A stretch of 64,000 bases of DNA from contig NZ_FUYR01000002.1 in NCBI RefSeq assembly GCF_900168015.1, positions 310,001 through 374,000 on the forward strand. The letters are read 5' to 3'. The notes beneath the pieces were generated by a model. That model saw only the letters and a list, made by a program, of their open reading frames with translations, made no database searches and had not been told where the DNA came from. This stretch comes from Daejeonella lutea. GTDB lineage: Bacteria; Bacteroidota; Bacteroidia; Sphingobacteriales; Sphingobacteriaceae. The position numbers were made by a program, and so were the translations under genes. This document shows positions 8,001 through 62,715 of the stretch, in pieces; position 1 is the stretch's first letter; every line of letters starts with the position of its first letter.

Positions 8001-8096
8001 GGAGAGTGGAGAGTAGAGAATGAATTAAACGCTGCATTAAAATTAGTAGCGTCTTCTCTCTCCATTCTCAACCTTCCACTCTCAATTCTCAACTTT
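8001..8096. repeat. Heptamer-type inverted array between M28 gene and cinA
   Basis: Left arm 8001-8022 repeats GAGAGTGGAGAGTAGAGAA. Right arm 8053-8096 carries the complementary TCTCTCCATTCTCAACC and TCCACTCTCAATTCTCAAC series. The loop contains GCTGCATTAAAATTAGTAGC, itself partly self-complementary. The right arm overlaps the last codons of cinA. It probably acts as a bidirectional terminator for the two convergent genes. Confidence 0.75.
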
Positions 8097-8579
8097 CTTC
8101 ACATCACGTATTAAGTCCAATACCATCCTTGCCACTCTGTCTACAGCCTGTGCAATAATGTCCTCCGGCTTACCTCTATACACTTCCCTAAGCCCGAGGC
8201 TTTTTTCTTCCCAAATCATATGCATAAACATAGTGCCTACTGGCTTTTCTGGTGTTTCACTTCCGCCGGATGTGGTGAGTCCGGTGACAGCCACATACAC
8301 ATCAGCTTTTATTAGTTTCTTTAGCCTTCTGCTTAATTGTTCGGTAACCTCGGCCGACTCAGGAGTATATTTCTTGATAATTCCAGGCGGAATATGCAGA
8401 ATATGTTCTTTTAACACTGCATCATAACAGACAATCCCGCCTTTTAACACCTGACCTGATTGGGGTGCCATCGCGAACGCGGCACAAAGACTGCCGGCAG
8501 TCGCGCTCTCAGCAAAGGTTATGGTAAGATTATTTGCAGCAAGTGCTTTGCAACTTTCAAGGACTAGTGTAGATGGCAT
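8082..8579 (-). CDS. pncC: CinA/PncC family nicotinamide-nucleotide amidohydrolase
   Basis: 165 residues, the length of stand-alone PncC proteins. Motifs typical of the CinA C-terminal domain are present: FAESATAGSLCAAFA at about 22-36, GGIVCYDAVLKEHIL, and VAVTGLTTSGGSETPEKPVGTMF. The enzyme deamidates NMN to nicotinate mononucleotide in pyridine nucleotide recycling. No N-terminal MoaB-like domain is fused. The last codons (AAG AAA GTT GAG AAT TGA) lie inside the heptamer array, so the C-terminal KKVEN and the stop codon come from repeat sequence. Reads away from the Omp85-type gene. Confidence 0.9.
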   Translation of the reverse strand: MPSTLVLESCKALAANNLTITFAESATAGSLCAAFAMAPQSGQVLKGGIVCYDAVLKEHILHIPPGIIKKYTPESAEVTEQLSRRLKKLIKADVYVAVTGLTTSGGSETPEKPVGTMFMHMIWEEKSLGLREVYRGKPEDIIAQAVDRVARMVLDLIRDVKKVEN

Positions 8580-8710
8580 AGATATATTTTCCTGTATAAC
8601 TTTTGTCTGGATAATAAGTTTGTGGGCCTATAGGAAATTGAACCATTTGTCTTTAATTCTTATAGCGGCTCATCTGCTTGTGATATCATCTTCAACTGTG
8701 AACTTAATCC

Positions 8711-8718
8711 TATATTTG
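8711..8718 (+). promoter_or_regulatory. -7 box before the Omp85-type gene
   Basis: TATATTTG, a perfect TAnnTTTG match, only 6 nt before the ATG at 8725. The transcript would be nearly or fully leaderless, and this spacing helps decide the start. Confidence 0.5.
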
Positions 8719-8724
8719 CCGCTC

Positions 8725-9870
8725 ATGAAAAACTCTTATCTGCTTCCTGGACTAATTGCAGTGCTCTTTATATGCAATCTGGCTCCCGCTTCAGCACAAA
8801 AGAAACTAATCAAGAAGCTCTTTTCCAATGAAGCTGATACCACCCGATCCAGCAGCTTTCTCGCCCTTCCCGTGCTCGGATATTCACAGGAAACCGGTGT
8901 TGAATTCGGTGCAGTAAGCCTTTACTCATTCTATACCGATCGCAAAGATACACTGACTCGTGCATCTCGCTTAACAGGTGTCGCTACCTTCACCACCAAA
9001 AGCCAGAGTAATTTTCAGCTTAAAAGCGATATTTGGGCGCCAGGTAATACATACCATTATACTTCGGAGTTCAGATACAAGAACTTTCCGTTCAACTTCT
9101 ATGGAGTCGGCAACAAAACCTTTAAGGCAAATGAAGACCGCATCACTCAAAAGTTGTTCAGACTCAACGCCGGAGCAGAAAAGAAATTCGGAAAGATAAC
9201 CTACACTGGCCTAAATGTTAATTATGACAGATATCGCTTTACAGACAAAGCTGAAGTTGGGGTATTTACCACAGATCCTTTCCTGGTAGACCGTGATGGT
9301 GGTCAGGTGCTCTTCCTGGGCATCAGCCAGATCTTCGATAATCGAAACTCCAATACATACACAACCAAAGGGACGTACCTGAAATTAAACTATTCATATG
9401 CCCCTAAGCTGTTTGATGATACTGATTTTGACGGTGGAATGTTCAAAGCCGATCTTCGTACATTTAAGAGCCTGAGTAAAAAAGCCGTCCTGGGAATCAA
9501 TGGTATTTTTCAAACCATTGGTGATGGAAACACACCTTTCTACCTCCTGCCTCAGTTAGGAAACGATGAGATGTTGCGAGGGTATTACACCGGCCGCTTT
9601 CGCGATGAAAATCTGTTGGCCCTGCAGGCAGAACTTCGTTTAAGATTAAATCCGAAAATTGGCTTTGTAGGCTTCGCCGGTACAGGTACTGTATACGGCC
9701 ATAACAGTTTCAGAGTTGCTGATCTTAAACCAAGCGTTGGCGCAGGGTTTCGCTATTTCTTTGATGTTGAGAAAGGGTTGAGTATCCGCATGGACTACGC
9801 ATACGGTGAAAAGAGACCAGGAGAAGAACGGCAGAAGGGCTTTTATTTAAGTTTAGGCGAATCCTTTTAA
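8725..9870 (+). CDS. BamA/TamA (Omp85) family outer membrane beta-barrel protein
   Basis: 381 residues. A longer open frame exists upstream, but the ATG at 8725 gives a clean signal peptide (MKNSYLLPGLIAVLFICNLA to ASAQ) and sits just behind a promoter box. The remainder is beta-barrel sequence with alternating aromatic strands. The Omp85-like block DEMLRGYYTGRFRDENLLALQAEL lies about 110 residues from the end, and the chain ends in the classical C-terminal Phe (LSLGESF). No POTRA domains are present, so it is a barrel-only member like the bacterial surface antigen/PatA-like group. Probably an outer membrane translocation or assembly factor of unknown cargo. Confidence 0.85.
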   Translation: MKNSYLLPGLIAVLFICNLAPASAQKKLIKKLFSNEADTTRSSSFLALPVLGYSQETGVEFGAVSLYSFYTDRKDTLTRASRLTGVATFTTKSQSNFQLKSDIWAPGNTYHYTSEFRYKNFPFNFYGVGNKTFKANEDRITQKLFRLNAGAEKKFGKITYTGLNVNYDRYRFTDKAEVGVFTTDPFLVDRDGGQVLFLGISQIFDNRNSNTYTTKGTYLKLNYSYAPKLFDDTDFDGGMFKADLRTFKSLSKKAVLGINGIFQTIGDGNTPFYLLPQLGNDEMLRGYYTGRFRDENLLALQAELRLRLNPKIGFVGFAGTGTVYGHNSFRVADLKPSVGAGFRYFFDVEKGLSIRMDYAYGEKRPGEERQKGFYLSLGESF

Positions 9871-9933
9871 TCTTCCACTGGTAAATTTACTATTTTGCAT
9901 ACCATTAAGCTTTGCATTATAGAATCTACTGAA

Positions 9934-11223
9934 GTGAAAAGATTAAAACAACTCATACTCCTCGCGTCAATCCCGCTTATTATCTCCTGTTCTCAGGATA
10001 AAGAAGACAGTGCAAGCTCGCTAAATACAATCGCACAGGACTATGTCAGGCTGGGTTTATTCATTGGTCAATATGATACTGACTTTGTTGATGCCTATTA
10101 TGGCCCCGACTCATTAAAACCAAAGACTAAACCCGAGCTATTTCCTAAAGACAGCGTGCTTAGCGCTATTGCGGGCATGCGGAAACAACTGGATCAGCTG
10201 ATTGCCAGGGGCAATGATTCTACTTCCGTTCGGGCCAAATGGATGTCGGGTCAGTTAACAGCATTTACCCGGAGAGTGAAGATCTTTACAGGAGAATACG
10301 GAACTTTCGATGAAGAATCTACCGACCTGTTTGGTGTAAAGGCGCCTGAATATCCTGCTTCTCATTACGAAGCTCTGATTGATTCCCTGGATAAGACACT
10401 CCCAGGATCAGGCAGTGTTCAGGATCGATTTCAGGCACTGGCTAATCGCTTCATTATCCCTAAAGCTAAACTGGATACAGTGTTTAAAACCACGATAGCT
10501 GAGGCAAGAGCGCGAACTCTGGCGCACTATAAATTACCAGCGGAAGAAAAGTTTAGCCTGGAATATGTAACCAATAAATCATGGAGTGGCTATAACTGGT
10601 ACAAGGGCAATTACACGAGTGAGATCCAGATCAATACTGACATTCAAATATTTATTGAGCGTGCTATTGATGTAGGCAGTCACGAAAGCTATCCGGGTCA
10701 TCATGTGTATAATATGCTGCTGGAAAAAAATCTTTATCGTGACAAAGGTTGGGTTGAAATATCACTCTATCCCCTGTTCAGCCCACAGTCGTTTATTGCT
10801 GAGGGCAGTGCAAATTATGGTATTGAGCTGGCGTTCCCTGGTCAGGATAAGGTACGCTTCTCGAAAGAAGTCATTCTACCATTGGCAGGACTTGATACTG
10901 CTGGCATTGGCTTATACTTCAAAGCATTGTCCATCCGCGGCAAGCTCAATTATGCCCGTAATGAAGCTGGCCGTGGTATTGTAAATGCTACCATGAATGA
11001 TGAACAGGCTCTGGATTGGCTTAAGAAATACTGTCTTTATAATGAAGAGACTGCCTTGAAGTCCATCAGCTTTATTAAGAAATACCGCAGCTACGTAATC
11101 AATTATAATTACGGACAGGACGTGGTTAAAAGTTACATAGAGAAGGGGGCAGCCAATGGACATTGGGATGTATTCTCTAATCTGCTGAGTAACCCTGTAA
11201 GCCCGCGCGACCTCATAAAATAA
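9934..11223 (+). CDS. DUF885 family lipoprotein, putative metallopeptidase
   Basis: I chose the GTG at 9934 because it places KRLKQLILLASIPLIISC, a lipoprotein signal with lipobox, at the N-terminus. An in-frame start at 9895 would bury it. About 430 residues. The family signature HESYPGHHVYN is at residues 250-260; in DUF885 proteins this HExxxGHH helix is the presumed zinc site, and the acidic ligand may be in FIAEGSANYGIELAF further on. The fold is zincin-like and the substrate is not established for this branch. Stands 63 nt behind the Omp85-type gene and 27 nt before a serine hydrolase, so these may be co-transcribed. Confidence 0.85.
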   Translation: MKRLKQLILLASIPLIISCSQDKEDSASSLNTIAQDYVRLGLFIGQYDTDFVDAYYGPDSLKPKTKPELFPKDSVLSAIAGMRKQLDQLIARGNDSTSVRAKWMSGQLTAFTRRVKIFTGEYGTFDEESTDLFGVKAPEYPASHYEALIDSLDKTLPGSGSVQDRFQALANRFIIPKAKLDTVFKTTIAEARARTLAHYKLPAEEKFSLEYVTNKSWSGYNWYKGNYTSEIQINTDIQIFIERAIDVGSHESYPGHHVYNMLLEKNLYRDKGWVEISLYPLFSPQSFIAEGSANYGIELAFPGQDKVRFSKEVILPLAGLDTAGIGLYFKALSIRGKLNYARNEAGRGIVNATMNDEQALDWLKKYCLYNEETALKSISFIKKYRSYVINYNYGQDVVKSYIEKGAANGHWDVFSNLLSNPVSPRDLIK

Positions 11224-11250
11224 CCCTTCAAGCAATCCATAAATCAACTA

Positions 11251-12747: not shown

Positions 12748-12750
12748 TGA

Positions 12751-12802
12751 TTGAGTGGAGACCCGATAGCTATCGGGTGGAGAGTTGACCCTGAAAGGGT
12801 CA
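12751..12802. repeat. Heptamer array interrupted by the palindrome ACCCGATAGCTATCGGGT, plus hairpin
   Basis: TTGAGTGGAG and GGAGAGTTGAC flank a perfect 18-bp palindrome at 12761-12778. The same palindrome is at 52676-52693, again inside a heptamer array. A second hairpin TGACCCtgaaaGGGTCA spans 12786-12802, and an imperfect one with CGACCCCGAAGGTGGTCG lies near 12833-12850. Together they fill the gap between two serine hydrolase genes and may end transcription of the first. Confidence 0.8.
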
Positions 12803-12883
12803 GATATTTATAGAACTTTTACATTTCCCGAACGACCCCGAAGGTGGTCGCATATGATTAGAATACATTGTTGAATTAGAAAC

Positions 12884-14164
12884 ATGAAAAGAACATTCCT
12901 ATCCCTGTTATTTATTGCAGCGCTTCTAAGTACTGCCTTAGCTCAAACAATCACTACATCCACCCCTGAAGCAGCGGGATTTTCCTCTGAACGCCTTAAG
13001 CGCATTGACGTGGCGATGAACGATTGGGTAAATAAAGGTTATCTGAATGGAGCATCAGCATTGATCATCAGGAACGGCAAAGTAGCTTATTATAAAGCTG
13101 CCGGCTACGATGATCTGGATACGAAAGCTCCGCTGCCAAAGGATGGCATCTTCAGAATTGCATCTCAAAGCAAAGCGATAACCAGCGTTGCTATAATGAT
13201 CCTGTTCGAAGAAGGCAAATTATTGCTCAGTGATCCTGTTTCTCTTTACATCCCATCCTTCAAAGGACAGTCGGTACTTGCCCAGCTAAATGCTGCCGAT
13301 ACGACTTACACCACCGTTCCTGCCAGGCGGGAGATAACTATCAAAGATCTCCTTACACACACGTCCGGTGTAGGCTATGCTCAAATCGGCTCACGCGAAG
13401 CCAATATGATTTATGGTAAATCGAAACTGACCGCGGGTATTGGTGTGAGCCATGAAAGTTTGCAGACTGCCATGAGCCGCCTGGGAACCCTTCCTCTTAT
13501 GCACCAGCCGGGAGAACGCTGGACGTACGGCCTTAACAATGATGTCCTTGGCGCTATTGTGGAGGTTATTTCGGGGATGAGCCTGGATGATTTCTTCAGA
13601 ACCCGCATCTTCGAGCCGCTGGGAATGAAAGACACATACTTTAACGTTCCGCAGGCTAAAGCGAGTCGCCTGGTTAACCTCTATACAGAAAAACCTGATG
13701 GCACTCTGGCTAAAGCACAGGCAAACATGCTCAATAATGGTCCGGTCACCGCTGCTTATCCTTTAGTCAAAACCTCTTACTTTTCCGGTGGTGCAGGCTT
13801 AAGCTCCTCAATTTATGATTATGCAATCTTTCTCCAGATGCTTTTGAACAATGGGGAGTACAATGGAAAACGTATCCTTTCAAGGAACTCCGTTAGAATG
13901 ATGACCACCAACCAGGTCGGGGAAATTCCAATTTCTAATGAGGATAAGTTTGGATTGGGTTTCCAGATTGTGACTGATAAAAGCAGTGGCCGAACACCAG
14001 CACAGGCAGGTACGTTTGGCTGGGGTGGTGCTTTCGGAACATCCTATTGGGTCGACCCTAAAGAGAAAATGGTTCTCCTGATCTATCGTCAGATGCAGGC
14101 CCGCACTCATAACGAGGTGATCGAGAAATTCCGTGCGATGGCATATGGAGCATTGAGCGAGTGA
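12884..14164 (+). CDS. Secreted serine hydrolase, class C beta-lactamase fold
   Basis: 426 residues with a signal peptide (cleavage near ALAQ). Motifs: SQSK (SxxK, about residues 93-96), YGLNND as the Tyr element, and GWGGAFGT near the C-terminus in the position of the KTG triad. It is a paralogue of the preceding gene in fold, but it lacks the DUF3471 tail and the two share little sequence, so this is not a recent duplication. Likely an exported esterase or D-peptidase. The stop codon TGA is part of a GAGAAATGAGC array, the first of two arrays before the deacylase gene. Confidence 0.9.
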   Translation: MKRTFLSLLFIAALLSTALAQTITTSTPEAAGFSSERLKRIDVAMNDWVNKGYLNGASALIIRNGKVAYYKAAGYDDLDTKAPLPKDGIFRIASQSKAITSVAIMILFEEGKLLLSDPVSLYIPSFKGQSVLAQLNAADTTYTTVPARREITIKDLLTHTSGVGYAQIGSREANMIYGKSKLTAGIGVSHESLQTAMSRLGTLPLMHQPGERWTYGLNNDVLGAIVEVISGMSLDDFFRTRIFEPLGMKDTYFNVPQAKASRLVNLYTEKPDGTLAKAQANMLNNGPVTAAYPLVKTSYFSGGAGLSSSIYDYAIFLQMLLNNGEYNGKRILSRNSVRMMTTNQVGEIPISNEDKFGLGFQIVTDKSSGRTPAQAGTFGWGGAFGTSYWVDPKEKMVLLIYRQMQARTHNEVIEKFRAMAYGALSE

Positions 14165-14194
14165 GAAATGAGCATTGAGAAATGAGAAATGAGC
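14162..14194. repeat. Heptamer-like array (GAGAAATGAGC type)
   Basis: Tandem GAGAAATGAGCATTGAGAAATGAG units start on the stop codon of the serine hydrolase gene. Single arm; no clear complementary arm is seen before the next promoter. Confidence 0.65.
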
Positions 14195-14250
14195 TTGTTT
14201 GTGCTCTATTGGGAGGGTATATTGTTACTTCAACATTTCATCCAAAATTA

Positions 14251-14258
14251 TATATTTG
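14251..14258 (+). promoter_or_regulatory. -7 box for the D-aminoacylase-like gene
   Basis: TATATTTG, a perfect TAnnTTTG match, 81 nt before the ATG at 14340. The resulting leader contains the array at 14275-14330. Confidence 0.45.
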
Positions 14259-14274
14259 GTTTCAATATGCTAAA

Positions 14275-14330
14275 AGCCCAATGCCCATTGCCCACAGCCC
14301 ATTGCCCACAGCACACAGCACACAGCAAAC
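14275..14330. repeat. Array in 5' leader (CCCATTG / CCACAG type)
   Basis: The region repeats GCCCATTGCCCACA and then CACAGCACACAG units. It lies between the putative promoter at 14251 and the start codon at 14340, so it would be transcribed as an untranslated leader. Confidence 0.65.
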
Positions 14331-14339
14331 TTAATTACA

Positions 14340-15929
14340 ATGAAGAAACTTTTACTATCTATTGCCCTGTTAACTACTACTATAGTCGCTGCTGCTCAAA
14401 CCGCACAAACCATAGCAGACATTATTATTAAGAATGGAAAAATTCTGGATGGCACAGGCAATTCCTGGTTTTATGGAGATGTGGCTATCAAAGACGGCAA
14501 GATCTATAAAGTCGGTTACCTAGGAGATCTGCGGGCCTCGAAAGTGATTGATGGAAAAGGCCTCGTTGTTGCACCTGGATTTATCGATGTCCATGGTCAT
14601 ATAGAAAATGGTGTTGTCCGGACTCCAACAGCTGATAATTATATTCTTGATGGTGTAACTACGGTTATTACGGGTAATTGTGGGGGTTCTGAAGAGGATA
14701 TTCGCGGATACTTGCGACTGGTAGACAGCATCCGTCCGTCAATTAATATTGCCTCACTTATCGGCCATAATACTGTCCGCGCTCAGGTATTGCAGCGTGC
14801 AAACCGTGCTCCAAGCGCAGAGGAGCAAAAGCAAATGGATGAACTCGTAGCTAAAGCTATGCGTGATGGTGCGGTTGGACTTTCAACCGGGCTCATCTAC
14901 ATACCCGGCACATTCGCTAAAACTGAAGAAGTAGTAAGTCTGGCAAAGGCTGCCGCAAAATACCATGGTGTTTATGCATCGCACATTCGTGACGAGGAAA
15001 ATAATGTTGTGGATGCAATTAACGAAGCTATAAACATCGGAAAGGAAGCCAATATTCCTGTACAGATCTCGCACTTTAAAGTTGGCGGCAGGTCGAACTG
15101 GGGCAGGTCAAATGTTACCGTGGGACTGATTGAAAAGGCTCGCAGCGATGGCTGGGAAGTAACTATTGACCAGTATCCATATACCGCCAGCAGTACTAAT
15201 CTGGGAATCCGCCTACCGGACTGGACTTTCCAGGGAGGGAACGATTCGATGAAGATCCGGCTGACTGATCCTGAAACTCGTTCGAAAATAAAAAAGGAGA
15301 TGCTTCAGCAGCTAAAAGATTATGCGTTTCCGAATTATTCATACGCAGTAGTTGCTAGCTATGCCCCTGATAGTACCTATAACGGAAAGAATATTTCTGA
15401 GATAAATAAGCTATTGGGCAAAAAGTCAAATGCATCAAATGAGGCGGAAACTATAATGGATATGGTGCTTGCCGGTGGTGCACAGATGGTGTACAACAGC
15501 ATGAATGAGAACGATGTGAAATACATCATGAAATATCCATTCAGCATGTTCGGCGCAGATGCCGGAATCAGGGTCTTCGGTCAGGGAATGCCGCATCCAC
15601 GGGGTTATGGTACTAATGCCAGGGTTCTGGGAAAATATGTAAAAGATGAAAAGGTAATCTCTCTTGAGGAAGCTATTCGCCGGATGACATCGCTTCCGGC
15701 ACAGAAGTTTGGTCTCAACGACCGTGGCTATTTGCTTCCGAACTACGCCGCCGATCTGGTTGTGTTTAGTGAAGCAGAAGTTCAGGACCTTTCAACGTTC
15801 CAGCAACCCCACGCATATTCAAAAGGCTTTAAATATGTGGTTGTTAATGGCGAGCTGGTAGTTGAAAATGAAAAGCACCTCGGCACGAAGAGCGGGAGGG
15901 CCTTATATGGACAGGCCTACGTCAAATAG
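14340..15929 (+). CDS. Secreted N-acyl-D-amino-acid deacylase family amidohydrolase
   Basis: 529 residues with a signal peptide (VAAAQ). Amidohydrolase superfamily: the metal motif GFIDVHGH (HxH) is at about 82-89, then TVITGNCGGS, the family block ASHIRDEENNVVDAINEAI, QISHFKVGGRSNWG, and a C-terminal beta-sandwich segment (LPNYAADLVVF). Known relatives hydrolyse N-acyl-D-amino acids, or D-aminoacyl dipeptides, to free D-amino acids. Its place after two D-peptidase-type serine hydrolases suggests use of cell-wall or D-amino-acid peptides, which is inference from context. The stop TAG runs directly into a TTGACGG array shared with the convergent methyltransferase gene. Confidence 0.9.
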   Translation: MKKLLLSIALLTTTIVAAAQTAQTIADIIIKNGKILDGTGNSWFYGDVAIKDGKIYKVGYLGDLRASKVIDGKGLVVAPGFIDVHGHIENGVVRTPTADNYILDGVTTVITGNCGGSEEDIRGYLRLVDSIRPSINIASLIGHNTVRAQVLQRANRAPSAEEQKQMDELVAKAMRDGAVGLSTGLIYIPGTFAKTEEVVSLAKAAAKYHGVYASHIRDEENNVVDAINEAINIGKEANIPVQISHFKVGGRSNWGRSNVTVGLIEKARSDGWEVTIDQYPYTASSTNLGIRLPDWTFQGGNDSMKIRLTDPETRSKIKKEMLQQLKDYAFPNYSYAVVASYAPDSTYNGKNISEINKLLGKKSNASNEAETIMDMVLAGGAQMVYNSMNENDVKYIMKYPFSMFGADAGIRVFGQGMPHPRGYGTNARVLGKYVKDEKVISLEEAIRRMTSLPAQKFGLNDRGYLLPNYAADLVVFSEAEVQDLSTFQQPHAYSKGFKYVVVNGELVVENEKHLGTKSGRALYGQAYVK

Positions 15930-16018
15930 TTGACGGTTGACGGTTGACGCTTGACAGTGGAAAGTTATTGTGGCAGCGTTTAGTTCACTGTCAACTGTCC
16001 ACTGTCAACTGTCAACTC
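15928..16018. repeat. Heptamer inverted array (AGTTGAC type)
   Basis: Left arm 15928-15960 repeats GTTGACGGTTGACGGTTGAC. Right arm 15983-16018 repeats the complement, CACTGTCAACTGTCCACTGT. The loop (15961-15982) contains GGCAGCGTTTAG. The arms begin at the stop codon of the deacylase and end 1-2 nt before the stop codon of the methyltransferase. Likely a bidirectional terminator. Confidence 0.8.
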
Positions 16019-16019
16019 A

Positions 16020-16805: not shown

Positions 16806-16822
16806 AGAGCAAAGATAGTTAC

Positions 16823-16992
16823 GGGAGGCGAGAAACGAGAAGCGAGCAGCGAGAAAGGGCAAAGAGATATGAAAAGGAGATGCGAGAAAAGGAATTGAGA
16901 AACATGGGGCTGACTGTGAGACTACCACTTTAATAACAGACTTCCGTTAATTAAGAAATACGTCTCGTAACTCGTTTCCCGTATCTCGCTTA
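16823..16992. repeat. Degenerate inverted array (GCGAGAAAC type) upstream of the methyltransferase
   Basis: Left arm 16823-16862 repeats GGCGAGAAACGAGAAGCGAG and continues degenerately to about 16900. The opposite arm 16961-16992 reads CGTCTCGTAACTCGTTTCCC. It occupies the divergent gap between the methyltransferase and the transglutaminase-like gene, one of the few arrays on the start side of genes. Confidence 0.65.
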
Positions 16993-17905: not shown

Positions 17906-18054
17906 GTATGAAGAAGGAAGTATCAAGTATCAAGATGGAAGCGTACCTATGCGCCTAGCTCAAGCGGTTATAAGAATCAAGACATTCCATTCTTGCATAT
18001 ACCATGCGGTTACCACGACTGAGTCTTGATTCTTGATACCTGATACTTGATTCT
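17906..18054. repeat. Heptamer inverted array (AAGTATC type) between transglutaminase-like gene and prfB
   Basis: Left arm 17906-17938 has GGAAGTATCAAGTATCAAG. Right arm 18021-18054 has the complement, TTGATTCTTGATACCTGATA. The 80-nt centre starts with GCGTACCTA (17941-17949), a nonamer also found at 40842 and 52609, and contains GCGCCTAGC. The right arm ends 4 nt before the prfB stop. Confidence 0.75.
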
Positions 18055-38258: not shown

Positions 38259-39545
38259 ATGAACATCCTCCTCCTCGGCTCCGGCGGGCGTGAAAGCGCA
38301 TTCGCATCGAAAATGGCTCAAAGCCCATTATTGTCGCAGTTATACATCGCTCCTGGTAACGGCGGAACGGGCGCTTATGGAAAGAACGTGAACCTTAAAG
38401 CGACAGATTTCGGCGCTCTGGCCGAATTTGTACTTAAGAATAACATTGGGATGGTAGTGGTTGGGCCTGAAGAGCCACTTGTTAAAGGCATTCATGATTA
38501 TTTCCTCGATCGGGCAGATCTGGCCCATATCCCGGTTATCGGGCCGCAGCAGGAAGGTGCTCAACTCGAAGGAAGCAAGGACTTTTCAAAGCAATTTATG
38601 ATCAGGCACGGCATTCCAACAGCTGCGTTTAAATCTTTTACCGTAGAAACTTTACAAGAAGGTTTAGCCTACCTTGATACTCAGAAACTGCCGATCGTTC
38701 TGAAAGCTGACGGTCTGGCGGCCGGTAAAGGCGTACTTATTTGTGAAACCCTTGATGAAGCAAAGCTTGAACTGAAAGCGATGCTTGCCGACGCGAAGTT
38801 TGGCGAAGCGAGCAGCACGGTTGTTGTTGAGGAGTTCCTGACAGGGATAGAACTATCTGTCTTCGTGCTAACTGATGGGAAATCATATAAGATCCTTCCG
38901 GAGGCTAAAGACTACAAGCGCATTGGCGAAGGTGATACAGGCTTAAATACTGGCGGGATGGGATCTGTTTCTCCGGTTCCTTTTGCTGACGCACAGTTCA
39001 TGAAGAAAGTAGAAGAACGTATTATCATTCCAACCATCGAGGGCTTAAAAAAGGATAATATTCCTTACAAAGGCTTCATATTTATAGGTCTGATGGCCTC
39101 ACATACTCCTGAAGGCAAAGATCCATATGTGATTGAATATAACGTACGCATGGGCGATCCGGAAACGGAGAGTGTTATCCCGAGAATTGAAAGCGATCTT
39201 ATAGAATTGTTCAAGGGGGTTGCTGATGAGAATCTTGCAGACAAAGAACTGAAGATATCTTCTAAGATTGCGGCTACTATCATGTTGGTTGCCGGCGGTT
39301 ATCCAGGGGAATATCTTAAAGGCAAGACCATTACCGGCATCGAAAATCTAAGACATTCTGTTGCTTTCCATGCAGGAACTGAACTTGAAAACGGGATTGT
39401 TAAATCGAACGGAGGAAGAGTAATTGCGATTACCTCCCTACAGGATAACATATTTGATGCTGTGCAGAAAGCTACTGCCGATGCTGGCCGGATTTATTTC
39501 GATGGCAGGTATTTCAGGGCTGATATCGGGGCGGATCTCATGTAG
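38259..39545 (+). CDS. purD: Phosphoribosylamine-glycine ligase
   Basis: 428 residues from the ATG at 38259 (MNILLLGSGGRESAFASKM). The upstream in-frame ATG at 38220 would cover the promoter and repeats. Catalyses the second step of de novo purine synthesis. ATP-grasp signature blocks: PIVLKADGLAAGKGVLI, VVVEEFLTGIELSVFVLTDG, GLNTGGMGSVSPVPF, IGLMASHTPEGKDPYVIEYNVRMGDPETE. Complete. The stop codon TAG merges into a hairpin array shared with the TlpA gene on the other strand. Confidence 0.97.
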   Translation: MNILLLGSGGRESAFASKMAQSPLLSQLYIAPGNGGTGAYGKNVNLKATDFGALAEFVLKNNIGMVVVGPEEPLVKGIHDYFLDRADLAHIPVIGPQQEGAQLEGSKDFSKQFMIRHGIPTAAFKSFTVETLQEGLAYLDTQKLPIVLKADGLAAGKGVLICETLDEAKLELKAMLADAKFGEASSTVVVEEFLTGIELSVFVLTDGKSYKILPEAKDYKRIGEGDTGLNTGGMGSVSPVPFADAQFMKKVEERIIIPTIEGLKKDNIPYKGFIFIGLMASHTPEGKDPYVIEYNVRMGDPETESVIPRIESDLIELFKGVADENLADKELKISSKIAATIMLVAGGYPGEYLKGKTITGIENLRHSVAFHAGTELENGIVKSNGGRVIAITSLQDNIFDAVQKATADAGRIYFDGRYFRADIGADLM

Positions 39546-39634
39546 AGTAAAGAGCAAGGAACAAAGAGCAAAGACCTAGGCGCATATTTCACGCTTAGCA
39601 GTCTTTATTCCTTGTTCCTTGTTGTTTGTTCCCT
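39544..39634. repeat. Heptamer inverted array (GAACAAAGAGCAAAG type) between purD and the TlpA gene
   Basis: Left arm 39544-39575 contains AGAGCAAGGAACAAAGAGC. Right arm 39601-39634 contains the complement, TTCCTTGTTCCTTGTTGTTT. The loop includes CCTAGGCGCATATTTCACGC. It begins on the purD stop codon and reaches 28 nt into the TlpA coding region. Confidence 0.8.
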
Positions 39635-40762
39635 AAAAACTTCTTCCAGTTTCTCAATCAGATCCGGGCCTCTCAGATCCCGCGCAATGATCTTCCCAGT
39701 TGGATCAAGCAAAAAATTCCTCGGAATGCTGTTTATCCCATAAAGCACAGCCGTTGGGCTTTGAAAATGCTTGAGTTCAGAAACGTGGGTCCAGGTTAAT
39801 TTATCATCCCGTAAACCCTTAAGCCAGTCTTTCCGATCGCGGTCGAGCGACACACCTAAAACAGTAAATCCTTTGTCCTTATACTTTTGAAAAGCACGAA
39901 CCACATTCGGGTTCTCCTGGCGGCAAGGGCCGCACCAGGCTGCCCAGAAATCGAGCAGAATATATTTTCCTTTTAGGGATGACAACGCAACTACTTTACC
40001 GGCGGTATCAGCTGCAGCGAATTCGGGAGCAAAGGCTCCCACAGAGGTCTTTTTTTCCTTTGTAATGTAGTCGATGATTGCTTTACCCGTCGGGCTCAGT
40101 CTTACCGTTGCATCGAGCTTATTAAAGGAAGCCTCCGCTTCAAAGAAATTATTGGTAGTCCGGGTGACTTCGGGAAGCATCAGAGCAGAAATGAATGCGG
40201 ATGGATTCTTCTCTATGTAATTCATTTGATAAGCAATAAGCTCTTTTCCAGCCTCTTTCAGGGAGGGAGAATACATTTTGATAATTGTATCCAGTGGAAC
40301 CCCCATTTGGGATTGCCGCTCAGCTGCTTCATTTAGTGCACTTAGCTTTGCCATGTATGGCGACTGGCCGGCAGTATATTTGACAACTTCGTCATTGGCC
40401 TTCGAACCCGAAATAGCCGCAGTTGCAAGCTTTCCTTTTACCACAATCGAAATATTTCCCTTATCGAGTACGAACTGCTTAAACTCTGACGGATCTTTTG
40501 GTTTGAGATTTTCAGCCAGCGATAAAAACCCCGGACTGGGCTCCGGTATATTACCGGTAATTATAAATTGACCGTTTTGAACCGGCACCTTTTTTATCTG
40601 CGGCGCCTGATTGCTTACAAATGATCCCTGGCCAAAATAGATAGTGGAGATCTTAAGGGATGTATCGATACTTCCTTTGATCGTATAGGGCTGCTGCTGG
40701 GCAATAGCTGGAACAATACTGATGATCAGTAAGAACGAAAGTAGAAGATTGAAATGCTTCAT
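39605..40762 (-). CDS. Secreted TlpA-type thiol-disulfide oxidoreductase with DUF4369 domain
   Basis: 385 residues with a signal peptide (PAIAQQ). N-terminal DUF4369 domain (about 25-130), helical middle, then an AhpC/TSA-TlpA thioredoxin fold with active site FWAAWCGPCRQENPNVV at about 272-288 and the cis-Pro region SIPRNFLLD. Works in the periplasm in disulfide reduction or isomerisation, possibly cytochrome maturation. The last residues (REQTTRNKE and stop) are encoded by repeat-array sequence, so the C-terminal tail is likely not conserved. Confidence 0.9.
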   Translation of the reverse strand: MKHFNLLLSFLLIISIVPAIAQQQPYTIKGSIDTSLKISTIYFGQGSFVSNQAPQIKKVPVQNGQFIITGNIPEPSPGFLSLAENLKPKDPSEFKQFVLDKGNISIVVKGKLATAAISGSKANDEVVKYTAGQSPYMAKLSALNEAAERQSQMGVPLDTIIKMYSPSLKEAGKELIAYQMNYIEKNPSAFISALMLPEVTRTTNNFFEAEASFNKLDATVRLSPTGKAIIDYITKEKKTSVGAFAPEFAAADTAGKVVALSSLKGKYILLDFWAAWCGPCRQENPNVVRAFQKYKDKGFTVLGVSLDRDRKDWLKGLRDDKLTWTHVSELKHFQSPTAVLYGINSIPRNFLLDPTGKIIARDLRGPDLIEKLEEVFREQTTRNKE

Positions 40763-46715: not shown

Positions 46716-46752
46716 CAGCAACTGTCAACTGTCAACTCTTCACTGTCAACTT
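46716..46752. repeat. Heptamer array (CTGTCAA type) at the arginase-like stop codon
   Basis: Repeats CAACTGTCAACTGTCAACTC and CACTGTCAACTTA; the last unit overlaps the stop codon of the arginase-family gene. No full complementary arm is seen nearby. Part of the 150-nt gap after xylB. Confidence 0.7.
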
Positions 46753-51586: not shown

Positions 51587-51620
51587 AGTGGACAGTTGAC
51601 AGTGGACAGTTGACAGTTGG
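51587..51620. repeat. Heptamer array (AGTGGACAGTTGAC, 14-bp period)
   Basis: Two copies of AGTGGACAGTTGAC followed by AGTTGG, directly upstream of the DUF3109 start codon. A start-side example of the array family. Confidence 0.75.
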
Positions 51621-51748
51621 ATGCATCTTAATTCAATGTGGCGACTAAAATTTAAATTATATCGAAAATTAATGAACCGACAATGGATATTTTGGCGTTG
51701 GACGACATAAGTCTGGGCAAATATCTTAATGGTACGCTTTGTGGAAAT

Positions 51749-51779
51749 CTTGATTCTTGGTTCTTGGTTCCTGGTTCTA
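51749..51779. repeat. Heptamer array (TTCTTGG type) at the DUF3108 stop codon
   Basis: TGATTCTTGGTTCTTGGTTC and CTGGTTC, ending 4 nt before the stop codon of the DUF3108 gene on the minus strand. Confidence 0.7.
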
Positions 51780-52560: not shown

Positions 52561-52570
52561 TTTTGCTGGG

Positions 52571-52744
52571 CTATGAGCTAACAGGTATCAGCTATCAGCA
52601 TCTTGCAGGCGTACCTATCGTAATGCAATGTTTTCAATCCGTCGATCCTTTTCGACTTTCCATTCTCAACTCTACACCCGATAGCTATCGGGTCTCAATT
52701 CTCCACTCTCAACTCTCCACCGTCAACCGTCAACCGTCAACTTA
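52571..52744. repeat. Compound repeat block: arrays, GCGTACCTA, and the ACCCGATAGCTATCGGGT palindrome
   Basis: 52571-52599 has GGTATCAGCTATCAGC units. GCGTACCTA is at 52609-52617. 52651-52744 has CATTCTCAACTCT, the palindrome (52676-52693), then TCTCAATTCTCCACTCTCAA and CCGTCAACCGTCAACCGTCAA. It ends 1 nt before the DUF2480 stop codon. It fills the gap between two minus-strand genes and may terminate transcription. Confidence 0.8.
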
Positions 52745-53261: not shown

Positions 53262-53275
53262 AACCAAAAGATTTT

Positions 53276-53366
53276 ACCGCAGAGTACGCAGAGTTTTTCG
53301 CCGAGAGCGCAGAGTCTAAGCGTGCAATCTCTGCGCTCTCGGCGTGTACTTTGCGCACTCTGCAGT
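53276..53366. repeat. Inverted array of GCAGAG type
   Basis: Tandem CCGCAGAGTACGCAGAG, with a perfect 16-bp inverted pair CGCCGAGAGCGCAGAG (53299-53314) and its complement (53329-53344) around a 14-nt loop. The outer CGCAGAG units (53278-53293) also pair with GCGCACTCTGC (53353-53363). Lies upstream of the DUF2480 start. Confidence 0.85.
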
Positions 53367-53406
53367 TAATAAATTTTGTGAGTGCCGTAAGGCACCACCT
53401 CTAAAC

Positions 53407-55656: not shown

Positions 55657-55808
55657 AGAGTGGAGAATGGAGAGTGGAGAGTGGAGAATTCACGGGATAG
55701 TTTCACATTCTCAGTTCTCAATTTTTAACTCTCAACTGGCAACGCTGTGTTATCCGATTTCCAACTGTCAACCATCAACCGTCAACTGTCAACCATCAAC
55801 TGTCAACT
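55657..55808. repeat. Heptamer block with two repeat types between ppiD and lptC
   Basis: Left arm 55657-55690 (GAGAATGGAGAGTGGAGAG). Partner 55707-55738 (ATTCTCAGTTCTCAATTTTT and ACTCTCAACT). A separate CAACTGTCAACCATCAACCG series at 55759-55808 without a complementary arm. GGCAACGCTGTGTTATCCG lies between. The last unit is 2 nt from the lptC stop codon. Confidence 0.75.
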
Positions 55809-55810
55809 CC

Positions 55811-56398: not shown

Positions 56399-56401
56399 TA
56401 T

Positions 56402-58443: not shown

Positions 58444-59135
58444 TACGCGTGTGCGATATTTAGGATAGACTCAAAGATGCCCAAACCGTCCTGATTGCCC
58501 AATATAGCATCAGCAGCACGCTCAGGATGTGGCATCAGTCCAAATACATTCCTGTTTACATTACATACACCGGCTATATTATTCAGGGAACCATTTGGAT
58601 TTGAAGCCGCAGAAACATTTCCATTTTCATCACAGTAATGAAACAGCACCTGATCATTATCCTGAATTTTCTTCAGAGAATCCGCATCAGCGAAATAGTT
58701 ACCCTCGCCGTGTGCTATCGGTATTTTCAATGCTTTCGCAGGATCAAGCAGGGATGTCATTAAGCTATTAGAAGTTGCCGGTTTCAGAAAGACATTTCTA
58801 CAGATGAATTTTCTGCTGGTATTGTGAAGCAAAGCTCCCGGCACCAAACCAGCTTCCGCAAGGATCTGGAAACCGTTGCAAATCCCGAGTACATATCCAC
58901 CCTTATTTGCAAATTGAATGATCTCCTGCATTAAAGGAGAATACTTCGCAATAGCACCTGAACGGAGATAGTCGCCGAAAGAAAATCCACCCGGCAAAAC
59001 AACAAAATCCACACCTTGCAGATTATGATCCTTATGCCACAAACGAATAACTTCCTGTCCCATTACCTGTTCCAGGACATAGATTATGTCTTCGTCACAG
59101 TTTGATCCAGGGAAAATTACAACTCCAAATTTCAT
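58443..59135 (-). CDS. purQ: Phosphoribosylformylglycinamidine synthase subunit I (glutaminase)
   Basis: 230 residues, class I glutamine amidotransferase domain delivering ammonia to PurL. Nucleophile Cys86 in VLGICNGFQILAEAG; His-x-Glu in LMPHPERAADAILG near the C-terminus. GFSFGDYLRSGAIA is family typical. First gene of the cluster, with no purL beside it. The region upstream (59136-60008) has no gene. Confidence 0.95.
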   Translation of the reverse strand: MKFGVVIFPGSNCDEDIIYVLEQVMGQEVIRLWHKDHNLQGVDFVVLPGGFSFGDYLRSGAIAKYSPLMQEIIQFANKGGYVLGICNGFQILAEAGLVPGALLHNTSRKFICRNVFLKPATSNSLMTSLLDPAKALKIPIAHGEGNYFADADSLKKIQDNDQVLFHYCDENGNVSAASNPNGSLNNIAGVCNVNRNVFGLMPHPERAADAILGNQDGLGIFESILNIAHA

Positions 59136-59334
59136 TATGATAAATTTTTATTTAGACCTGCACGAATCGAATCGAACCGGTTTATGCTACAAATCTATTC
59201 AAAATTTGAGACTGGTGAGGGGTTTTAGTGTTAAAAAAGGTTAAAAGGGCGCTTTCGCGCGCCAAATAATATTTATCCTCGCCTCATGGCCGAAGTTCAC
59301 ATACTTTATGTATTGGGTACAGTTTGCATTTTTT

Positions 59335-59950
59335 CCGCCTCGTGCCGGCGGACTGGCACTTACTTTTCCCTGCAGCTGGAAAAGTAAGCAAAAGAGCCGC
59401 CGCTGCGCCTGGCGCTATTAAAGCTTGTGCTGAGGCTACACCTGAAGTTGCCGCACCAGCCAATGCGGAATGACGGTGAACGGAGATTCAGTGCTTTGGC
59501 CAGAGAAGCGTACACATAGCTTAGCTGGTGTAGAGAGGCGTCCGCCTAAGGCGAACGCAGGCAAACGTACATGACGTGATGGAGGATCGGTGGGTACGCT
59601 GGGTAGCTGATATTAATAGTTCTTCTATCTCTGCAGGTTGCAGAACACGCCCTCCTAAGATTTGGCGGTAAAGGCGCGTTTTAGACCCAAATGTTTCTGT
59701 TAAAGTTTACCAGCAATTCAAGCAATGCAGAAGTGTTGCAGTCAAACTCAATTCTTGCACAAACATTCACACGGCTTGGATTGCGACATGGGGCTAAAAC
59801 GTGGATTTACAACAAATATTAGGCAGGCGCGGGCTGTTACTCGTTTTTGTTTATTGTTTATTAAGGCACTCGTGGTCTCCCGTTGGTCGGCATGCCTACT
59901 TTTTTGCCTGCAGAAAAAAGTAGGTGCTCTTCCGCCGGCACGAGGCGGGA
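59335..59950. mobile_element. 616-bp inverted-repeat-bounded non-coding element
   Basis: Both ends carry CCGCCTCGTGCCGGCGG (left 59335-59351, right inverted at 59932-59948) followed inward by an 11-bp hairpin with an 8-nt loop containing CTGCAG. Left hairpin: CTTACTTTTCC (59359-59369) with GGAAAAGTAAG (59378-59388). Right: CCTACTTTTTT (59895-59905) with AAAAAAGTAGG (59914-59924). Three stem pairs differ by compensatory changes. The 500-bp interior has no convincing gene; it holds GCGTCCGCCTAAGGCGAACGC (59538-59558) and TCTGCAGGTTGCAGA (59630-59644). Could be a MITE or a structured element. The remaining gap (59136-59334 and 59951-60008) shows only a GGGCGCTTTCGCGCGCC hairpin near 59249. Confidence 0.6.
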
Positions 59951-60008
59951 TCAATTTTGACCTAAAGCAACAGAATTAGTCCGGCCTGGGCGGACATGAG
60001 CGGGAACA

Positions 60009-60986
60009 TTAAAAAATTTGAAAATATACTATCCCTCCAACCAACACCAAAAACATACTTTCATAAAGCCAGACTTTCCCAGCATGAACAAAATAATACG
60101 CCATTAATACTGCTGCGGGGGGTGCGCATAAAAGAAAATGGTATAATCTGAGGTCTTCTTTCAGGTAGAATGACACCAGACCGATAATGAACATAAAAAA
60201 TAGTAGCTGAAACGATTTGCGAAGGTGAACCACGCTTCGGAAAAAATTCTTTTGCAGCTGGAAAAATCCCAGTACCAAAATAGCGGCAACAGGCAGGAGG
60301 ACAAGGGTATCGTAAAAATTAATCCGAAGGTTGGTGGGAAATTTTGATGTCAGTGGCAGCCAGATCCTATAGAACTGGTCCAGAGAGTCGTTCCAATAAT
60401 AAAAAACACCCAGGAAAAAGAAGATTGTTATGAAACCAGTGATCACGGCAAGCCACTCTCTCCAGTTAAAGGGCCGGAAAATAATGAGGCTGATCCAGAG
60501 AAGCGGAAGCATTGCAATAAAGGGAAAGTATATGAGCGTGCCTAATGCAACGATCATTCCCAGGTCATACATAACAGATCGAACTTCATCTCTTTTGTAA
60601 ATACTGAGGAAACGCTCCAACATCCACAATAAAAGGAAATTACAAAACAGGGCAGGACTTAATATCAGGAATGGGGTAAATAAACTCCCTGCAGAAATGT
60701 ATAGTAAGGCTGGCAGATACGTTGATTTCCCCAGAAGGTTATACGAATTTACGATCCAGTTGAAAAGCAAGGCTTGTACAAAAATCAAAAACGCCGCAAC
60801 ATAAATATTCGTTAGTGTTGGAAGTGAGTTTTCCGGAATTGGAACAAGCAACCTCGCAAAAGGCTCGATAAAATCAACACTGACCTGCTCAGGAAGATGC
60901 ATAAAAATACCGGCTCTCAGCAAAAGCGTGATAACCGCAAGGAAAAGGATATTTACAGGATTAATACTGCGGAACTGCTTGATCAT
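60009..60986 (-). CDS. Multipass inner membrane protein (DUF6427-like)
   Basis: 325 residues with about nine hydrophobic segments spread along the chain, starting with INPVNILFLAVITLLLRAGIF and ending with ESMFLVLVGGIVYFQIF. A charged loop LERFLSIYKRDEVRSVMYD and the motif FRPFNWREWLAVITGF are conserved-looking. Similar to the DUF6427 proteins of Bacteroidota, an assignment by resemblance. Function unknown. Stands alone. Confidence 0.75.
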   Translation of the reverse strand: MIKQFRSINPVNILFLAVITLLLRAGIFMHLPEQVSVDFIEPFARLLVPIPENSLPTLTNIYVAAFLIFVQALLFNWIVNSYNLLGKSTYLPALLYISAGSLFTPFLILSPALFCNFLLLWMLERFLSIYKRDEVRSVMYDLGMIVALGTLIYFPFIAMLPLLWISLIIFRPFNWREWLAVITGFITIFFFLGVFYYWNDSLDQFYRIWLPLTSKFPTNLRINFYDTLVLLPVAAILVLGFFQLQKNFFRSVVHLRKSFQLLFFMFIIGLVSFYLKEDLRLYHFLLCAPPAAVLMAYYFVHAGKVWLYESMFLVLVGGIVYFQIF

Positions 60987-61020
60987 ACATCGGCATTTGC
61001 TACAATATTAAGATAAAAGA

Positions 61021-61049
61021 GGGGAAAGGTGAAAGGTGAAAGGTGAAAC
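61021..61049. repeat. Short AAAGGTG array
   Basis: Three copies of AAAGGTG (GGAAAGGTGAAAGGTGAAAG) upstream of the membrane protein gene. The same heptamer recurs 230 nt on, in the DinB array. Confidence 0.7.
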
Positions 61050-61142
61050 AAAGCCCCGGAAGTCTCCCCAGCGATTTAAAGTTTAACGTTTCCTTAACAA
61101 TCTCCTCATTCCCGATTACGTAATTAGTATAAAATCTTTAAC

Positions 61143-61247
61143 ATGACCACAGAATTCATTATTCAGATCATACTACTTTTGATAATTGTTATCGTGGGGA
61201 TTTGGCTAAGTCCGTATGATGTGGGGTTTGAGGAGGAAGAACTTTGA
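61143..61247 (+). CDS. Small single-pass membrane protein (34 residues)
   Basis: ATG at 61143 to TGA at 61245-61247. It reads MTTEFIIQIILLLIIVIVGI followed by WLSPYDVGFEEEEL: one hydrophobic helix with an acidic tail. TATAAAATCTTTAAC just upstream looks promoter-like. Downstream it converges with the DinB gene through a heptamer hairpin that begins 3 nt after this stop codon, the position seen for real genes. Whether it is translated is unproven. Confidence 0.5.
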   Translation: MTTEFIIQIILLLIIVIVGIWLSPYDVGFEEEEL

Positions 61248-61250
61248 TTA

Positions 61251-61336
61251 GTTGAAAGAGGAAAGGTGAAAGAGGAAAGTTAAAGGGTCGATTATCCGTG
61301 TCGCACTTTTCACCTTTCACCTTTCACCTTTCAACT
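61251..61336. repeat. Heptamer inverted array (AAAGGTG type) between small membrane gene and dinB-like gene
   Basis: Left arm 61251-61281 (GTTGAAAGAGGAAAGGTGAA and on). Right arm 61304-61336 (TTTTCACCTTTCACCTTTCA). The loop holds TCGATTATCCGTGTCG. The right arm overlaps the last 20 nt of the DinB gene, including its stop codon. Confidence 0.8.
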
Positions 61337-61844
61337 GACGTGAAATTCTCTCAAGCTGCCGTGTATGGTGTTTCGTATGGATTTCGATAAACCTCCACCA
61401 TTGCTTTGCATTTAAGAGTCCCAGGCGGGGGTGCTTGATCATTTGATCCCTGTCGGCTTTATCCACTTTATCTTTGAGTTCTGAGAGACGCTTTCGAAAT
61501 TTAACAATCAAATTTGATGCTTCTTCTTTGCTTATGATCTTCACCATTGAGGCGATGCGCTCGGGTGCTTTGAATTTCCCTGGTGGGAGTCTACCAAAGA
61601 AAAGTATAGCCAAAACCTGCCAGGGGGTGCCCTTTTTATTAATGATTCCCGTTTTGAGAAAACACTTCTCAACAGCTATTAATGAAGCCAAATTTGATTG
61701 AAAGATATGAGAAAAGGTTTCAGAGTATGACCATTGTCCTTCTGCCGGACTTTGGGTAAATACTTCTTCCGATACCTCCTGTAAAAGGGTTTCATATTGG
61801 CCTACGGCTTCAATCATCGACTTGAAATGGCTGTTTACGCTCAC
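61317..61844 (-). CDS. DinB family protein
   Basis: 175 residues, DinB/YfiT-like four-helix bundle with the metal-binding histidines in QWSYSETFSHIFQSNLA (His at about 46) and RFIEIHTKHHTRQLERI (His-x3-His near 155-160). Members include metal-dependent thiol transferases and hydrolases; the substrate is unknown. The C-terminal QLKGER and stop codon TGA are encoded by the AAAGGTG array. Overlaps the YjjG-type gene by 4 nt, so the two are coupled. Confidence 0.85.
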   Translation of the reverse strand: MSVNSHFKSMIEAVGQYETLLQEVSEEVFTQSPAEGQWSYSETFSHIFQSNLASLIAVEKCFLKTGIINKKGTPWQVLAILFFGRLPPGKFKAPERIASMVKIISKEEASNLIVKFRKRLSELKDKVDKADRDQMIKHPRLGLLNAKQWWRFIEIHTKHHTRQLERISRQLKGER

Positions 61845-62542
61845 AGTATCTGTACTAATTCACTAAGGCAATAAATCTCATGTACCACATCTTCGGGCTT
61901 TTCTTTGCGTCCGGGGTTGAAAAAGATCGCTTTCATCCCGTAAGCCTGTGCGCCTCTGATATCAGCCTCAACGCTGTCCCCGATCATCAGGCTTTCTGCG
62001 ACTGATGCAGTGGTCGTATTTAAGGCATGATCAAATATAGCTTTATCAGGTTTGTTAAATCCTATTATTTCTGAAATGAAAATGGTGCTAAAATATTTTG
62101 CAAGGTCGGTATTCCCGATTTTTAGCTCTGTAGATTCTTTGAACCCGTTGGATATGATGTGAAGAGTGTACTTGCTTCGAAGATACTCCAGCGTATCGTG
62201 AGCATGCGGAAAAAGGTTTGTTTTTGTAGGACAGATAGTAACATAATCGTTCTCAAAATTGATTGGTATTCTATCAGGCGACAACCCCAGTTCAATAAAA
62301 GTCTTTGAGAATCTTGTTGAACGCAATACCTCTTTGCTGATCTTGCCAATATGATAATCTGCCCAAAGCTGATGGTTGTTTTTAGTGTACGTCTCGATAA
62401 AGGCATCAGGAGAGTGCAAACCCAGGTCCTTCAGCCCGTAAGTATGATATAGTTCATGGAGCGTCTCTTCAGCATTCTTGTCGAAATCCCAAATGGTGTG
62501 ATCAAGGTCGAAGAAGAGGTGTTTGTAGATGGAGGGGGTCAT
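61841..62542 (-). CDS. yjjG: YjjG family noncanonical pyrimidine nucleotidase
   Basis: 233 residues of the HAD superfamily. Motif I FFDLDHTIWDFDKNAEETL at about 10-28, motif II IISNGF, motif III region GFNKPDKAIF, motif IV MIGDSVEADIRGAQAYGMKA. Hydrolyses noncanonical pyrimidine nucleotides (house-cleaning). Its stop overlaps the dinB-like start by 4 nt. Divergent from uvrB, from which it is separated by a repeat hairpin. Confidence 0.93.
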   Translation of the reverse strand: MTPSIYKHLFFDLDHTIWDFDKNAEETLHELYHTYGLKDLGLHSPDAFIETYTKNNHQLWADYHIGKISKEVLRSTRFSKTFIELGLSPDRIPINFENDYVTICPTKTNLFPHAHDTLEYLRSKYTLHIISNGFKESTELKIGNTDLAKYFSTIFISEIIGFNKPDKAIFDHALNTTTASVAESLMIGDSVEADIRGAQAYGMKAIFFNPGRKEKPEDVVHEIYCLSELVQIL

Positions 62543-62592
62543 GTGAGATATAGCTGGTTTAGTGATAGAAACGAGTCACATTGAACAAACAT

Positions 62593-62715
62593 GAGTTATA
62601 AGTTGTAAGTTATAAGTCAAAAATGCGCAGACATACCGACAACTACGCTTATCCGGATCGCTGCACAAACCTAAAACTTATTACTTACAACTTACGACTT
62701 ACGACTTACAACTTT
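62593..62715. repeat. Heptamer inverted array (ACTTACA type) in the uvrB promoter region
   Basis: Left arm 62593-62618 (TTATAAGTTGTAAGTTATAA). Right arm 62673-62715 (ATTACTTACAACTTACGACT and on). The loop holds GCGCAGACATACCGACAACT and CCGGATCG. The right arm runs up to the -7 box of uvrB, so this hairpin is in a divergent promoter rather than a terminator position. Confidence 0.75.

Follow-up and report, generated by a model that had tools for sequence, protein, structure and literature searches.

Heptamer arrays at gene ends in Daejeonella lutea and its relatives: complementary arms at part of the loci and units that change between species

Can an intergenic hairpin change nearly all of its letters and still remain a hairpin? 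This question is raised by a stretch of 64,000 nucleotides from Daejeonella lutea (hereafter the window; C8:310001-374000, from a genome of 4.03 Mb and 10 contigs), in which short degenerate arrays of 7-base units lie between genes and are at some places followed by a second array of complementary sequence. An earlier note on the window had proposed that the second arm is the reverse complement of the unit of that same locus, and that the unit drifts from locus to locus while the pairing is kept. Here, we describe the arrays as a class, the match between their arms within one genome, and the fate of the same gene ends in other species.

The heptamer arrays proved to be real, and they make up a class. 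In C8:1-854000, where simple longest open reading frame (ORF) calls gave 742 genes at 89% coding (a map that will lack some small genes), a scan at a score of at least 14 found 65 arrays with a period of 7, of which 58 were intergenic and seven lay in coding sequence. Period 14, a multiple of 7, gave 48 intergenic arrays and all the remaining periods from 3 to 15 gave zero to six each, and no period-7 array was found in dinucleotide-shuffled intergenic DNA at the same score. The nearest genome compared, G003, has 13 intergenic period-7 arrays in 400 kb, and the window has 14 intergenic regions with such an array at a score of at least 8 on the ORF-based map. The arrays favour gene ends: at a score of at least 11, their density is 1.65 per kb in convergent gaps, 1.05 and 0.87 in the two kinds of tandem gap and 0.42 in divergent gaps, and an array stands within 25 nt of the 3′ end of a gene in 48 of 435 cases, compared to 14 of 477 for the 5′ end (p 1e-6). 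When read in the sense of the gene, 43 of these 48 stop-side arrays are purine-rich.

We then examined the match between the two arms of a locus. Each left arm was tested against right arms taken from elsewhere in its own genome (20,000 permutations), a control that discounts units common genome-wide because the partners come from the same genome. At the 15 convergent loci of D. lutea, the match was 11.10 within loci vs 7.22 between loci, and one permutation was as good; nine loci scored at least 9.5, and the own partner was the single best in four. The 28 tandem loci gave 8.45 within vs 6.89 between loci (218/20,000), and the three divergent loci showed no pairing effect in this test. The same test gave 87/20,000 in G003 (n=15) and 368/20,000 in a further relative, G010 (n=7), and for the 24 D. 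lutea regions with two arrays 88/20,000 permutations were as good, with about half of the regions unmatched. RNA folding, which the earlier note had named as a check on the hairpin, gave predicted folds with z from -2.92 to -10.15 at ten chosen loci. When whole gaps of 50-220 nt were folded (25 shuffles), the median z in convergent gaps was -3.99 with at least two arrays (n=5), -1.41 with one (n=10) and -1.07 with none (n=42); the corresponding values in minus-strand tandem gaps were -2.36, -2.54 and -0.57, and plus-strand tandem gaps did not differ with the number of arrays.

All comparisons with other genomes are at species level, since even the closest pair, D. lutea and G003, is well below strain-level identity (92% in one protein, and about 75% at the DNA level over 20 conserved pieces). 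Among the gaps common to these two genomes, four carry arrays in both, one in D. lutea alone and nine in neither, and in farther relatives arrays were found in 2/6 (G010), 1/4 (G007), 1/5 (G019) and 0/4 (G004) of the gaps that carry them in D. lutea. Seven array-bearing gene ends of D. lutea, sites A-D in the window (Table 1) and E-G elsewhere on C8, were followed through the genus; the D. lutea rows are ascertained, because the sites were picked for its arrays. Rows without a conserved neighbour were excluded, which kept 7 of 16 (A), 15 of 18 (B), 13 of 19 (C), 15 of 19 (D), 15 of 19 (E), 14 of 19 (F) and 15 of 17 (G). Both arms of site A are built from an AGTTGAC-type unit in D. lutea and from AACTGAA in G003, and site E has ATCAAGA in D. 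lutea and AAAGAAC in G003 (CAAG-type vs AAAG-type); at these two sites, nearly every unit in both arms differs between the two genomes. At site B, ten genomes (D. lutea and nine relatives) carry arrays, with units of AAGTATC-type in D. lutea, CAAGAAC-type in G007, AAGGAGC-type in G010 and TGAGATG-type in G001, and at site C the arrays of relatives are also built from other units. Each left arm was next set against every genome's right arm at its site. None of 20,000 permutations was as good over 58 rows from six sites (rows outside 40-420 nt and the tandem site C were excluded, and some of the rows are ordinary hairpins without arrays). The same result, 0/20,000, was obtained in the array-bearing subset of 28 rows (score at least 9, gaps up to 240 nt), in which the own partner was best in 14 and site D was uninformative because its right arm is part of the neighbouring ORF. 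In a harder comparison, the two arms of a genome were required to be closer to each other than either is to its orthologues; this was so for 14 of 24 rows, with D. lutea and G003 passing at sites A, B, E and F. In summary, co-change of the arms is common, not universal.

We also looked at classic terminators behind the same gene ends, scoring 150 nt for each (array score at least 9). Arrays were present in 45 of 86 rows from 14 array-rich genomes (38 of 79 when D. lutea is left out) and in none of 37 rows from six array-poor genomes (G005, G006, G013, G014, G015, which is 68% complete, and G016), in which no AGTTGAC-type array was found. Classic terminators were predicted by a simple rule (stem of at least 6, loop of 3-9, T-run), which also fires in 4-25% of shuffled convergent gaps; they occurred in 8/86 array-rich vs 12/37 array-poor rows, with a p of 0.0028 that ignores the kinship between the genomes. 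Among the array gaps of D. lutea, the rule predicted a T-run terminator for 2 of the 15 convergent and for 6 of the 38 tandem ones. In convergent gaps of 25-450 nt in general, the classic type was predicted in 22/77 in D. lutea, 5/25 in G003, 26/67 in four other relatives, 36/62 in Mucilaginibacter and 22/28 in Sphingobacterium-type genomes, the last two counts being drawn from one orthologous neighbourhood across many species. The arrays may explain why T-run terminators are so rarely predicted between convergent genes in D. lutea and genomes like it.

The units are partly locus-specific and partly genome-wide. The 113 intergenic arrays counted in D. lutea use 41 distinct units, and the claim that units differ between loci was therefore too strong as it stood, since some recur: AATCAGT in 13 arrays, AGAGTTG and ACAGTTG in 10 each and AAGTATC in nine. 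In G003, AAAACTG leads (6 of 30 arrays), and AATCAGT, the commonest unit of D. lutea, is absent from these 30. D. lutea and Mucilaginibacter have three units in common, vs none in a letter-permuted control. AGTTGAC-type triplets (up to three mismatches) were found in 43 of 201 genomes of the family, in 10 of 25 genera, and a strict GTTGACN triplet in 15 of 395 genomes of the phylum. A 20-nt apex, one change apart, is present at C8:388329 in D. lutea and at C2:355041 in G003 (stretch position 195041); the genes that flank the two loci are no orthologues (25% identity in one pair, which lies on opposite sides) and the arms use other units, so that some copying must have taken place between loci. 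Nothing detectable is common to most spacers of D. lutea.

We hold, at about even confidence, that the arrays are terminator-like 3′-end hairpins, alike from both strands, in which the letters are free and the pairing is kept, and the arms of which are homogenised by slippage together with template switching. The purine-rich array would begin at or just past the stop codon, a short spacer would be the loop, and the stem would be closed by a reverse-complement array rich in pyrimidines; between convergent genes, one hairpin could act on both transcripts, either as a terminator or as a 3′-end barrier, halting transcription or RNA decay. Period, arm polarity and pairing would be the features kept, and the letters would not be. 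Slippage in replication would alter the copy number of the tandem units, template switching would carry units across between the arms, and some copying between loci would add to this. Since tandem and inverted repetition are combined in the arms, we propose that a locus could switch its heptamer yet stay paired, and we infer that template switching, and not selection alone, couples the arms. A bolder form of this explanation, which we consider possible but doubtful, is that period 7, polarity and self-complementarity together make up a letter-free, two-strand gene-end signal, which would stand in for classic terminators in part of Daejeonella and form species dialects at conserved sites, through the concerted evolution of copies both tandem and inverted.

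Besides the kinship left out of the terminator contrast, several observations weigh against the terminator-like hairpin with coupled arms. Clear pairing is lacking at six of the 15 convergent and about two thirds of the 28 tandem array loci of D. lutea. In 10 of the 24 rows the arms within a genome are no closer than the orthologous arms, and the two overall means hardly differ (12.9 within genomes, 12.3 for orthologous arms). These ten rows are compound loci at sites E (G002, G009, G010, G017, G019) and F (G008, G010, G012, G018, G019), and at site F several relatives have a common right arm while their left arms differ. No one-step template-switch event was seen, because the nearest relative is only about 75% identical. 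The closely related genomes of Mucilaginibacter gossypii and SMC90 share a paired heptamer hairpin, with arms 19 and 24 bases apart, in which the left arms are identical, the right arms near-identical and the spacers different, so that the spacer changes as well. Neither in D. lutea (p 0.21 and 0.52) nor within the array-rich genomes (p 0.14) do arrays and classic terminators exclude each other significantly, and in four relatives the two stand together in 5 of 12 convergent array gaps. Hence, the earlier proposal that the unit drifts under maintained pairing holds where species differ at one site while the arms match, but not at unpaired or compound loci. Its expectation that arms change together in sister genomes is likewise borne out by the 28-row test and fails in ten of the 24 rows, and independent change of the arms, which it had named as telling against itself, occurs in these rows and at site F, where several relatives keep the right arm.

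Alternatively, the arrays could be a mutational by-product, arising by slippage and hairpin template switching on small palindromes throughout the genome and accumulating behind stop codons, where they would do little harm and have no function. Many arrays are single or unpaired, compound loci decay to mixed units, and units vary freely between species. The background may also be permissive. SbcD belongs to a nuclease cleaving long hairpins, and it (TIGR00619) was undetected in 18 of 20 genus genomes, D. lutea included. However, its absence does not follow array richness (13/14 array-rich and 5/6 array-poor genomes, with one genome of each kind having it), and the loss of SbcCD was rejected as a cause on this ground. 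As the site and the pairing persist while the letters change, and as arrays are denser between convergent than between tandem genes, we regard a by-product as unlikely. The persistence of paired arms at conserved sites is in turn what selection on RNA pairing alone would give, acting through single compensatory substitutions and with no copying between the arms; but since nearly every unit in both arms has a new letter between D. lutea and G003 at sites A and E, many parallel changes would be needed, which makes this explanation very improbable.

A further alternative is that a dispersed mobile or copied palindromic element with a conserved apex (of the REPIN or MITE kind) brought both arms together to the gene ends, with the dialects reflecting recent copying. 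The apex common to C8:388329 and the non-orthologous G003 locus would fit, as would the recurrence of units such as AATCAGT at many loci. Yet the apex occurs in few loci (a loose scan allowing up to six changes gave 6 near arrays vs 0-6 for permuted cores), most spacers of D. lutea have no detectable common sequence, and the sites are orthologous across species rather than scattered insertions, so that such an element is improbable. Other candidates were rejected. An assembly artefact is unlikely, because independent genomes show different units at identical sites. The window has no Rfam match at gathering thresholds, the frequent units contain no run of three G that a G-quadruplex would need, a common spacer that would mark a mobile family was found in few loci only, and the site E element, the one searched for plasmid spread, had no match in a plasmid collection.

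Within the window (Table 1), degenerate arrays of about 7 bases were confirmed at the places listed in the earlier note, except at 53276. The GCAGAG copies there (53274-53370) are 9 and 21 bases apart, hence not a heptamer array, although the hairpin is strong (0/2,000 shuffles as good) and, at z -10.15, the strongest of the ten folded loci; GCAGAG-like strings also occur behind a gene in G013 (L221). The second arm is the complement of the unit of its own locus at 15928, 17906, 39544, 61251 and 62593. This does not apply to 55657, nor to 51587, where the AGTTGAC array is followed by a TCTTGGT array instead of its complement. Correspondingly, shuffles did not reproduce the arm match at the better loci but did so at 51587, 55657, 46719 and 52570, and the arms at 16829 were unconvincing (117/2,000).

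Table 1. Array loci of the window. Arm matches were scored against 2,000 dinucleotide shuffles of the arms per locus; the figure is the number of shuffles that were equally good.
Feature	Coordinates	Strand	Left array	Right array	Shuffles as good	Fold z	Basis
GGAGAGT array with right arm	8001..8097	.	GGAGAGT 8001-8019	CTCTCAAT-type 8058-8097	50	-4.98	weak arm match
Tandem-gene gap with two arrays	14148..14327	.	TGAGAAA-type 14148-14194	GCCCATT-type 14276-14327	9		partial, weak arm match
Site A, paired array hairpin between convergent genes	15929..16017	.	GTTGACG-type 15929-15955	ACTGTCA-type 15987-16017	0	-7.19	arm match, fold, G003 comparison
Site B, gap between convergent transglutaminase-like gene and prfB	17906..18054	.	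AAGTATC 17918-17934	TGATTCT-type 18020-18051	0	-2.92	arm match, fold, orthologous arrays
Site D, hairpin behind GARS (purD-like) gene	39544..39632	.	39544-39574	39608-39632	0	-6.88	arm match, fold
Site C, single array at stop codon of minus-strand gene	46719..46751	.	CAACTGT	own partner arm not found	1,357		relatives' arrays
AGTTGAC array and unrelated TCTTGGT array, one gap	51587..51778	.	AGTTGAC 51587-51619	TCTTGGT 51748-51778	2,000		unmatched arms
GCTATCA array and TCTCCAC/ACCGTCA array, one gap	52570..52742	.	GCTATCA	TCTCCAC/ACCGTCA	1,787		unmatched arms
AGAGTGG array and CAACTGT array	55657..55808	.	AGAGTGG 55657-55687	CAACTGT 55762-55808	1,246 and 1,178 (two candidate partners)		unmatched arms
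AAAGGTG arrays and complementary array	61020..61331	.	AAAGGTG 61020-61048 and 61253-61279	complementary 61304-61331	0 for each left array	-4.82	arm match, fold
AGTTATA/AACTTAC paired arrays	62594..62714	.	62594-62617	62676-62714	0	-7.30	arm match, fold

At site D (39600-39640), the right arm lies within the ORF of the convergent neighbour, the stop codon of which falls in the array, and the array therefore seems to have reset the end of the protein. The spacer of site A in D. lutea holds a motif, CTAAACGCTGCCAC, that resembles the inverted spacer of G003, a likeness noticed by eye and after the fact. Longer direct duplications of array-plus-spacer modules were seen in L245 and L246 (site B) and in G012, G018 and G008 (sites E and F). 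Some relatives with duplicated modules have a recurrent spacer near CTAATTTGAAATTTACAGTATTT, and a core scan of six genomes for spacers of this kind found nothing near arrays. In G001 (L312 3010, 3056; L285 1220), another inverted repeat, GGACAGGTCGCGACCTGTCC, stands at gene ends that carry heptamer arrays in relatives. The palindrome ACCCGATAGCTATCGGGT occurs directly behind a gene end at 12761-12778 of the window and again at about 52676-52693 inside a heptamer array gap, and several relatives have it in their array gaps as well.

Corresponding gene ends can be aligned across species in which the heptamer is replaced while the stem is often retained, which offers a natural experiment on selection for shape as opposed to sequence, and one that also bears on a possible coupling of the arms in bacterial hairpins by template switching.

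Heptanucleotide STRR repeats occur in cyanobacteria, and heptamer arrays beside stop codons are already known from Xanthomonas and Nostoc. According to Rehm et al. 2015 (PMC4692102), the GGGAATC / GGGGA(C/T)T repeats of these bacteria lie near the stop codon of the gene upstream and more rarely between divergent genes, mostly occupy matching gene gaps in two species while varying in length and sequence, and are in part tandemly inverted; those capable of forming quadruplexes coincide with transcript starts or stops more than others, and no function was found for these intergenic arrays. The arrays of D. lutea resemble them in period, in being mostly intergenic (58/65) and beside stops, and in being fewest between divergent genes. 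In contrast to the one G-rich, quadruplex-capable unit per group described there, dozens of units without G runs are used here, and the unit switches between species at one site while the arms match within a genome. The TAACTGA repeats of Beggiatoaceae, cyanobacteria and five Bacteroidetes are, according to MacGregor 2015 (PMC4679880), intergenic direct repeats, and an earlier survey cited there found heptamers to be the most frequent kind of long repeat in most genomes with many of them. These too are intergenic heptamers with Bacteroidetes among their hosts, but they consist of one unit, mostly just before starts, whereas the arrays described here use many units and favour stop codons. The rarity suggested by the earlier note thus does not extend to intergenic heptamer arrays as such, and what is new is the paired, unit-switching form, for which a literature search, in which subscription journals were thinly covered, found no paper in Bacteroidota. 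Template switching is described, in PMC8794818 and PMC8604942, as keeping stems by homogenising the arms of inverted repeats, with several compensatory changes at once and a possible inversion of the spacer; the cases given there are RNA genes and yeast coding genes, as opposed to the tandem heptamer arms at bacterial gene ends considered here. Unlike REP/REPIN elements, which are many copies of one palindrome, the arrays differ between loci in their units and in most of their spacers. Like intrinsic terminators, they give a predicted RNA stem-loop behind the stop codon, though only part of the loci pair; unlike them, they have long repetitive stems, spacers often exceeding a terminator loop, and usually no T-run terminator in the gap.

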